Below are positions 19,463 through 21,705 of a DNA stretch of 64,000 nt, in pieces. Within the stretch, counting starts at the first letter, position 1; every line of letters starts with the position of its first letter. Source of the stretch: Marinobacterium stanieri. GTDB lineage: Bacteria > Pseudomonadota > Gammaproteobacteria > Pseudomonadales > Balneatricaceae. The stretch covers positions 821,682 through 885,681 of the forward strand of contig NZ_FTMN01000001.1 of NCBI RefSeq assembly GCF_900155945.1, read 5' to 3'. The translations under genes and the position numbers were made by a program. The notes beneath the pieces were generated by a model, which saw only the letters and a program-made list of their open reading frames with translations, searched no databases and was not told the origin of the DNA.

Positions 19463-20476
19463 CTAGAGCCAGGCCAGCTGTATGCTGTCTCCGCTGCTGA
19501 TATTGAGTGCTTCAGCCTGTGCCGGCGTCAGCTCCGGATGTTCCGGATCGACCTCTGCCAACAGGCAGCGGAAATTCTGCAGTTGTCCACTGGCCACCAG
19601 TGCCAGCGCCTTGTCGGCTTCTTCATCATCTGCGCTCACGCCGATGCTGAGCGTGCGGCTTTCGACCAGAGTACGCAGACGATCAGTCTGGGCTTCCAGC
19701 GTGGGGCCACCATCAAAGATGTCGACGTAGCCACGGTAGTCAAAGCCTTCCGATTCCAGCAGCGCCTTGACGCGCGCCGCATCGGAACGCGGCTGTCCCA
19801 GTGCTTCGCGTGCTGCATCACTGAGCAGCGGCAGGTATACCGGGTGGTGCGGCAGCAGTTCGGCAATAAAGCCCTTGGAATCGATGCCGGTGAGGTAGTT
19901 GGCCTTGGCAAAGTCCATGCTGAAGAAGTGGCGTCCCAGACTCTCCCAGAACGGTGACTGGCCGTTGTCGTCCTGAACCCCCTGAAGCTCTGCGATGATG
20001 CGGCTGTCAAAACGCGCTCGGTGCGCGGCGATGAACAGCAGACGGGCACGGGACAGCAGATGCAAATTACTGCGCTGACGGTGCTCGGCATCCAGGAACA
20101 GGGTGTACAGACGCGAGGCGCCGGTAAAATCCTGGCACAGGTTCAGTGCCGGAATGCGATTGTGGATCTGCAGTTCGCTGGACGCATGAATGACTTCATT
20201 GATGCGATAGCTGTAGAACGGTGATTCAATGCCCACCGCCGCTTCAATACCGGAGATACCGACAATTTCACCGCTGATGCTGTCTTCCAGCACAAAGTGG
20301 TAGCTTTCCTGCTCGGGGCGCTCAACCGCCTTGCGCAGTGACTGCAGGGTACGGTCGATCAACTCACTGAGGTGATCCCGATTGGCGGGCAGAGTAGTCA
20401 GGCTGCCGCCAGACACCACGGCCAGCCGCTCCAGGCCCTGCAAATCTTTGAATTCGACCGGACGCAGTACCAGCAT
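19463..20476 (-). CDS. aruF: Arginine/ornithine succinyltransferase alpha-type subunit (AruF)
   Basis: A 337-residue paralogue of the aruG product with the same landmarks ([73 protein letters not shown]). It should form the heteromeric transferase with AruG. Its ATG overlaps the stop of the upstream M20 hydrolase gene by one base (TGATG), so the two are translationally coupled. A 107-bp gap separates it from aruG. Confidence 0.94.
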   Translation of the reverse strand: MLVLRPVEFKDLQGLERLAVVSGGSLTTLPANRDHLSELIDRTLQSLRKAVERPEQESYHFVLEDSISGEIVGISGIEAAVGIESPFYSYRINEVIHASSELQIHNRIPALNLCQDFTGASRLYTLFLDAEHRQRSNLHLLSRARLLFIAAHRARFDSRIIAELQGVQDDNGQSPFWESLGRHFFSMDFAKANYLTGIDSKGFIAELLPHHPVYLPLLSDAAREALGQPRSDAARVKALLESEGFDYRGYVDIFDGGPTLEAQTDRLRTLVESRTLSIGVSADDEEADKALALVASGQLQNFRCLLAEVDPEHPELTPAQAEALNISSGDSIQLAWL

Positions 20477-21705
20477 CAGCGCTCTCCAAGCCAGCTTCTG
20501 TCTGAGCTGGTCGCCAGTTTCATCAGGATAAGGGCACTCAGCTTGGCCCTTTCGGTCAGGCTGCTGACGTGCATGTATTCATCAGACGAGTGAATCTTGC
20601 CACCGCGCACACCCAGCGTATCGATGTTGGGGATACCCGCAGCGGCCAGGTTGTTGCCATCACAGCAGCCCCCCGTGGGCAGCCAGGAAATGCTCATGCC
20701 CAGTTCGGCACCGCAGTCACGGGCCAGCTCGAACAATTTCTGGTTGGCACCGCTGAGTTTTTTCGGCTTGCGGCCAAAGCCACCGTGCAGCTCGATACTG
20801 ATGCCGTCGCGGGCATTGATATCGGCCAGCAAACGGTCCAGATGCTGCTGACACCAGGCTTCGTCATCCACCTGCTCCAGGCGAATATTGAAACGGGAGA
20901 TACACAGGTCCGGCACGATGTTGACGGCACCGCCGCCTTCAATGAAGCCAGGGTTGATCGTGACGCCCTGGCGCTGACCATTGAGATCGTCCAGCGCCGC
21001 GATGAAGTCGGCCATGGCACGAATGGCGTTGCGGCCCAGGTGATGTTCGCGACCGGCATGAGCCGCCTTGCCACGGACCACAACGCTGAAGTTGCCGCTG
21101 CCCTTGCGCTCACCGGCCAGGTTGCCATCCGGGAAGCTGGGTTCGTAAATCATGCCCAGGTCCACCTCTTTGGCAGCCTCGGCAATCAGAGCCGCCGAAG
21201 ATGGAGAGCCGATCTCTTCATCGGGGTTAAACAGGATCTGCCAGCCGATCTGGTCCGCCCAGGGGCTGCGTTCCAGCGCCATCAAGGCATTGATCATGAC
21301 CAGCAGGCCACCCTTGAGGTCGGCAACACCCGGGCCGTTCACGGTGTCATCATCCAGCCACTGGATCTGCTGGAAGGGATGATCAACCGCAAATACGGTA
21401 TCCATGTGGCCGCAGAGGAAAATCTGCAGCGGTGCTTCAGGGCGCTTGCGGATACGGACGGCATTTCCCAGCGGGAACTGGTCCAGTTCGCCCTGAGAGT
21501 TGAGGTGTTGATAGGGAGCGACCGGCAGGATTTCGGTCTCGCCACCAAGGGGCTGGCACAGGCGGACAAGCGCTTCACCCACTCGGTTGACGCCAGTGTG
21601 GTTCAGCGTACCGGAATTGATCTCGGCCAGCGCCAGGGTATCGTCGAGCATCTGTTGATGCTGTTCGTCCAGCCATGCTAGCCAGGGGGTAAAGTCGTGA
21701 GTCAT
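20476..21705 (-). CDS. M20-family hydrolase in the ast operon (candidate succinyl-amino-acid hydrolase)
   Basis: A 409-residue metallopeptidase of the M20/carboxypeptidase G2 type. The zinc ligands and catalytic residues are visible: GHMDTVF (His and first Asp), GPGVADLKGG (bridging Asp), NPDEEIGSPSS (catalytic Glu pair), the dimerisation-domain region AAHAGREHHLGRNAI and the final His (KIHSSDEYMHV). M20 enzymes hydrolyse N-acyl or peptide bonds of amino acids. It sits between astC and aruF, overlaps aruF by one base, and has a good AGGAGG site. Because astE is absent from the operon, it may remove succinate from N-succinylglutamate; that is inference, and another N-acyl amino acid is possible. 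Confidence 0.85.
   Translation of the reverse strand: MTHDFTPWLAWLDEQHQQMLDDTLALAEINSGTLNHTGVNRVGEALVRLCQPLGGETEILPVAPYQHLNSQGELDQFPLGNAVRIRKRPEAPLQIFLCGHMDTVFAVDHPFQQIQWLDDDTVNGPGVADLKGGLLVMINALMALERSPWADQIGWQILFNPDEEIGSPSSAALIAEAAKEVDLGMIYEPSFPDGNLAGERKGSGNFSVVVRGKAAHAGREHHLGRNAIRAMADFIAALDDLNGQRQGVTINPGFIEGGGAVNIVPDLCISRFNIRLEQVDDEAWCQQHLDRLLADINARDGISIELHGGFGRKPKKLSGANQKLFELARDCGAELGMSISWLPTGGCCDGNNLAAAGIPNIDTLGVRGGKIHSSDEYMHVSSLTERAKLSALILMKLATSSDRSWLGER

Follow-up and report, generated by a model that had tools for sequence, protein, structure and literature searches.

The last step of the arginine succinyltransferase (AST) pathway is known to be carried out by AstE, which is a member of the AstE/AspA zinc-carboxypeptidase-like group and not of the M20 family. 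Within the M20 metallohydrolases carboxypeptidase G2 liberates L-glutamate from N-acyl-glutamates, and DapE takes off N-succinyl groups, so that for each half of N-succinylglutamate there is an M20 relative that deals with it. We analyzed a stretch of 64,000 nucleotides from Marinobacterium stanieri (the window) in which an M20 gene is found among the ast genes, and propose that its product is very probably a non-homologous replacement of AstE, cleaving N-succinyl-L-glutamate and thereby completing the AST pathway. The original prediction concerned this one case. The sequence comparisons reported here point to a widespread and unnamed second form of succinylglutamate desuccinylase.

The genes of the operon are located on the minus strand, and the five AST genes named in the prediction all match their family models. 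In the order of transcription they are astC/aruC for the succinylornithine transaminase (21833-23059; TIGR03246, 690 bits, cut-off 610), the M20 gene (20476-21705), aruF (19463-20476; TIGR03243, 419 bits, cut-off 284) and aruG (18327-19355; TIGR03243, 431 bits, and TIGR03244, 427 bits, both above the cut-off) for subunits of the arginine/ornithine succinyltransferase, astD for the succinylglutamate-semialdehyde dehydrogenase (16859-18325; TIGR03240, 797 bits, cut-off 579), and astB for the N-succinylarginine dihydrolase (15512-16837; TIGR03241, 695 bits, cut-off 538). The starts of aruG and astD were placed at internal ATG codons, the listed open reading frames extending to 19400 and 18436, respectively. 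The M20 gene is indeed a complete reading frame of 409 amino acids between astC and aruF. Its stop codon and the start of aruF have one base in common (TGATG), and from this overlap, which had been predicted, we judge that the M20 gene is closely coupled to aruF. A terminator-like stem followed by T's just 3′ of astB (approximately 15473-15493) agrees with the predicted end of the unit.

The claim that the M20 gene is a true operon member holds, with a qualification. The coupling to aruF speaks for it; astC is possibly split off by a stable hairpin with a UUUU tail, a terminator or attenuator according to RNA folding, located at 21770-21802 (minus strand) in the gap of 127 nt between astC and the M20 gene. 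The folding energy is −24.5 kcal/mol for a 66-nt fold (z −2.65), and 4 out of 200 shuffled sequences were equally stable. Because this strong hairpin separates astC from the M20 gene, the latter may be the first gene of an M20-aruFG-astDB unit that is separate or attenuated. Among named organisms, the M20 gene has its nearest relatives in Marinobacterium halophilum, with 89% identity, and in M. marinum, with 88%. A contig scan with the single window protein returned four relatives only; the gene order of the window was found in three named ones (L073, L074, L076), and in L075 astC is 3.5 kb away with M20-aruF-aruG-astD-astB still together.

Several genes in the surroundings could be related to arginine metabolism. 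Divergent from astC lies a gene for an AraC-family regulator (23238-24395, plus strand; best model the choline regulator GbdR, whose cut-off of 480 bits is not reached with 384.5), which is a candidate for the activator of the ast cluster. Also near astC is a gene for an ornithine-racemase-like protein (24392-25462, minus strand; racem_Orr 406.8 bits, below the cut-off of 480), also found in the Marinobacterium relatives L073 and L074; this protein may supply the pathway with D-ornithine or D-arginine. An NhaC-type antiporter (25551-26996, minus strand; 456.7 bits, cut-off 370), which matches the arginine/ornithine antiporter ArcD below the cut-off, is a possible arginine or ornithine transporter of the cluster. 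A second AstC-like protein is encoded at 52986-54284 on the plus strand (302 bits by phmmer with the AstC of the window).

A lack of astE had been predicted for the operon, together with the suggestion to search the full genome. Such a search is needed because astE is often found far from astB: in the order sample described below it lies within 6 kb of astB in only 22 out of 48 genomes. Nothing was found in the whole host genome (4.68 Mb, 24 contigs) with TIGR03242 at E ≤ 10 or with PF04952 at E ≤ 0.001, and the E. coli control was found with both models. By TIGR03242 and by PF04952, the AstE family of Pfam from which PF24827 was split off more recently, the gene is absent from the entire genome and not from the operon alone, and an astE located elsewhere was rejected. 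With a listed completeness of 98.67%, it is possible but unlikely that astE is hidden in a missing stretch.

The phylogenetic co-occurrence, also suggested as a check, was determined in three genome samples. The AST pathway was represented by astB (TIGR03241 at E ≤ 1e-30) and the M20 family by NF005602 over its cut-off. For astE the thresholds were E ≤ 1e-3 in the class sample, 1e-15 in the order sample and 1e-10 in the phylum sample, weaker matches being invisible in the last two. The class sample contains 23 genomes with astB out of 370, among them 12 with M20, 10 with astE, one with neither and none with both. In the order sample (77 with astB out of 195) 28 genomes have M20, 48 astE, one neither and none both; among the 195, every one of the 28 genomes with M20 also has astB, and astE occurs without astB in two further genomes. 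The phylum sample has 120 genomes with astB out of 397, of which 95 are not in the other samples; the 80 tested among these 95 divide into 37 with M20, 40 with astE, three with neither and none with both. After removal of the overlap (G000, G241 and G317 are in the class sample and in the order sample alike) the three samples together comprise 177 genomes with astB, of which 76 have M20, 96 astE, five neither and none both.

This strict either/or distribution (Fisher p 1.3e-44, uncorrected for relatedness and overstating independence) and the absence of astE from the host by profile are strong comparative support for the predicted role of the M20 protein. We judge from these sequence data that the family represents a non-homologous succinylglutamate desuccinylase of the M20 type which is widespread in the phylum. 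A mere count of M20 paralogues was rejected as a reading of the distribution, M20 proteins below the cut-off being found in astE genomes as well. Two genomes carry multiple copies: G706 has three astB genes and two M20-family genes over the cut-off, each M20 less than 3 kb from an astB, and in G682 two astB genes are each accompanied at a short distance by one of two astE genes.

In a set of 14 control genomes, E. coli and Caulobacter vibrioides have astB. Only E. coli has an astE over the cut-off, the match in Haloferax volcanii being weak, and only Caulobacter has NF005602 at E ≤ 1e-80 and over the cut-off. Caulobacter vibrioides thus possesses astB and the M20 family, and no astE match was found in it. 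In the 40 tested genomes from the other class or classes of the phylum astE was found in none at E ≤ 1e-10. These genomes are probably Alphaproteobacteria, judging from the Caulobacter control and from plasmid records of Sphingomonas and Novosphingobium. A named public example of the M20 locus is the Sphingomonas parapaucimobilis plasmid NZ_CP155749.1, on which a gene annotated as ‘hydrolase’ is followed by ‘arginine N-succinyltransferase’ and ‘N-succinylarginine dihydrolase’, and the 13 kb read contain no astD.

The exceptions are of two kinds. Five out of the 177 genomes carry astB with neither M20 nor astE; four of them were read over 20 kb (L140, L142, L143, L144; the fifth is G885), and no astA, astC or astD was found beside astB in these 20 kb. 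Since astB stands there without these genes, the four loci possibly do not encode an AST pathway, and some of their AstB homologues may have another role. The reverse case arises from the class sample, where NF005602 exceeds its cut-off in 16 out of 370 genomes, 12 with astB and four without; the latter are outside the either/or counts, which cover genomes with astB. In each of these four, astA and astD come after the M20 gene. In three of these loci a gene of the ureohydrolase family comes directly after astD, where the window has astB (L136:13058-14161, PF00491 168.8 bits; L137:13088-14218 and L139:13138-14229, both by phmmer to the L136 gene), and none was seen at the M20-astA-astD locus of L138. 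The models for agmatinase, arginase and formimidoylglutamase each give a match, but in no case one that reaches the cut-off. Going by its position, the ureohydrolase may replace the AstB step, either as an arginase followed by succinylation of ornithine by AstA or by acting on N-succinylarginine. Both routes leave the M20 protein after AstD, which speaks against an action in the AstB part of the pathway, and a tie of M20 to AstB instead of the pathway end was rejected. Since the genomes without astB keep the M20 gene with astA and astD, it goes together with the succinyl steps, and this fits a final desuccinylation.

The distance between the M20 gene and astB is 1.0-5.4 kb in 66 out of 76 M20 genomes and 24 kb in one; in nine the two are on different contigs. 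We read 15 family loci over 17-20 kb (L136-L139, L145-L155). An astA-type gene is the most constant neighbor, present in the cluster in 15 out of 15 and adjoining M20 in all but L148 and L150, hence in 13; astD follows with 12 (not in L146, L150, L151) and a clear astC with four (L148, L151, L152, L154). This preference for astA could favor a different reading, namely that the M20 enzyme cuts off succinate earlier, from N2-succinylornithine or succinylarginine, as a short-circuit to ornithine. The relatives ArgE, acting on N-acetylornithine, and DapE, acting on N-succinyl-diaminopimelate, would also suit such an activity. We nevertheless regard it as improbable: astD would be idle in the 12 clusters that keep it, all four without astB included, the AstE step would be left unfilled in the 76 genomes without astE, and it would be futile to remove what AstA has just added.

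A further argument for desuccinylation at the end of the pathway arises from the AstB tree. With a mixture model 117 labelled proteins require nine parsimony changes, at least three of them forced by starred branches. In a tree of 121 rows built under a simpler model, seven changes are required for the 117 labelled rows, and the starred branches force four (astE) or five (M20). On branches with strong support there are three independent pairs, too few for significance (p 0.25 by the sign test), and on all branches nine; the M20 and astE labels are clustered by lineage. Repeated swapping of M20 and astE is the better reading of these trees, with an uncertain number of events.

The M20 protein itself reaches 552 bits with NF005602 (PRK07338; residues 8-400, cut-off 357) and is therefore a member of this family, which in NCBIfam release 20.0 (June 2026) bears the name ‘hydrolase’ only, with no reaction given. 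Its Pfam hits are confined to M20, with Peptidase_M20 and M20_dimer over their cut-offs, and it matches neither of the AstE profiles TIGR03242 and PF04952. An AlphaFold2 model (pLDDT 95.9) has its best fold match in carboxypeptidase G2, with 6XJ5 as the closest solved fold (TM 0.80-0.81). The closest solved sequences are carboxypeptidase G2 as well (1CG2, E 2e-25; the engineered form 7M6U, 9.5e-26). The second-best NCBIfam model is PRK06133, ‘glutamate carboxypeptidase’, with 198.2 bits and below its cut-off of 349. From these matches one might consider a peptidase or an N-acylglutamate (folate-type) carboxypeptidase as a source of glutamate or arginine, merely co-regulated with the ast genes, succinylglutamate being cleaved otherwise or excreted. 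We give this very little weight, as it leaves unexplained both the swaps seen in the AstB tree and the fact that M20 and astE were never found together in the 177 genomes. That the protein is an ArgE or DapE of biosynthesis in the wrong place, although it belongs to their superfamily, is hardly credible and was rejected, given scores far below the equivalog cut-offs (TIGR01246 41.7 bits against 361.8, PRK13009 68.7 against 284, TIGR01892 62.4 against 297.7, PRK05111 46.4 against 460) and given that other parts of the genome encode a DapE proper (575 bits) and one more deacylase of the ArgE/DapE family.

Returning to the proposed succinylglutamate desuccinylase, its full zinc/active-site set, as claimed from the window, was recovered: none of H100, D129, E163, E164, E188 and H372 is missing, and each is conserved in 50 out of 50 aligned sequences, the window's own included. 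In M20 enzymes the equivalents of these residues have metal-ligand and general-base roles; the dimerization domain of the family is covered by the M20_dimer match. R200, R219, R275, R312 and K315 are invariant in the same alignment. R219 occurs in 79 out of 79 NF005602 family rows and in none of nine M20 paralogues below the cut-off, and together with P189, N351 and N352 it sets the family apart. R312 and K315, also present in all 79 rows, are shared by five out of nine paralogues and hence not unique to the family; R200 and R275 are found in nine out of nine. In a tree the 79 family rows (77 distinct) are divided from the paralogues, which form a separate clade and lack R219, by one branch with a support of 96*, to be read with a long-branch warning. 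In the phmmer alignment R312 is opposite position 302 of the PDB sequence of carboxypeptidase G2, which we take to be, by an offset of 22, the substrate-carboxylate arginine Arg324. As N-succinylglutamate has three carboxylates, a set of basic residues seems sensible, and the five invariant Arg/Lys residues would suit such a tricarboxylate.

The chemistry of M20 deacylases and carboxypeptidase G2 provides the model for a potential mechanism, and the relatives together with the genomic context suggest the substrate. N-succinyl-L-glutamate, the product of AstD, would be split into succinate and glutamate by a two-metal hydrolase, the two metals probably being zinc. A metal-bridging water held by H100, D129, E164, E188 and H372 might attack the amide carbon, with E163 as the general base, and R200, R219, R275, R312 and K315 could hold the three carboxylates.

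An assignment of the M20 family to the AST pathway was not among the matches listed in the open-access literature, subscription papers, KEGG and MetaCyc being outside this scope. The literature covered includes PMC7311316, PMC11511702, PMC5578688 and PMC4476821, and ‘PRK07338’ or ‘NF005602’ is not mentioned in the open-access literature searched. The main text of PMC9007349, on catabolic gaps filled from fitness data, is without ‘succinylglutamate’, ‘desuccinylase’ and ‘astE’. We found no earlier description of an M20-type succinylglutamate desuccinylase; an earlier proposal may exist. If the assignment is true, the ‘hydrolase’ family NF005602 gains a name and a reaction, and a gap in the textbook pathway is closed in 76 out of the 177 astB-bearing genomes examined, organisms which metabolic reconstructions based on AstE only would call incomplete. 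Caulobacter vibrioides is a laboratory organism in which the proposed non-homologous replacement is open to test. In general we lean towards an AST pathway that is modular at two steps. The M20 desuccinylase would be the usual last enzyme outside the class of the window (probably in Alphaproteobacteria) and in many families within it, and astB would also be replaced by a ureohydrolase in some lineages, through arginase and the ornithine-succinyltransferase route or a succinylarginine ureohydrolase.

In comparison with known systems the M20 protein takes the same place in the AST pathway as AstE/AruE (TIGR03242) and presumably catalyzes the same reaction; the two families were found together in none of the 177 genomes. 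For NF005602/PRK07338, of which the window protein is one member, a reaction is now proposed that would apply to the family. Carboxypeptidase G2 (1CG2, 6XJ5) is an M20 enzyme whose metal-site residues are aligned with those of the window protein; it differs by a sequence identity of 24-25%, a different operon and a different predicted substrate. The M20 enzyme DapE has a related fold (5VO3, TM 0.69) and removes an N-succinyl group as we propose for the window protein, but the identity is approximately 20% by structure alignment and DapE is separately present in the host genome.
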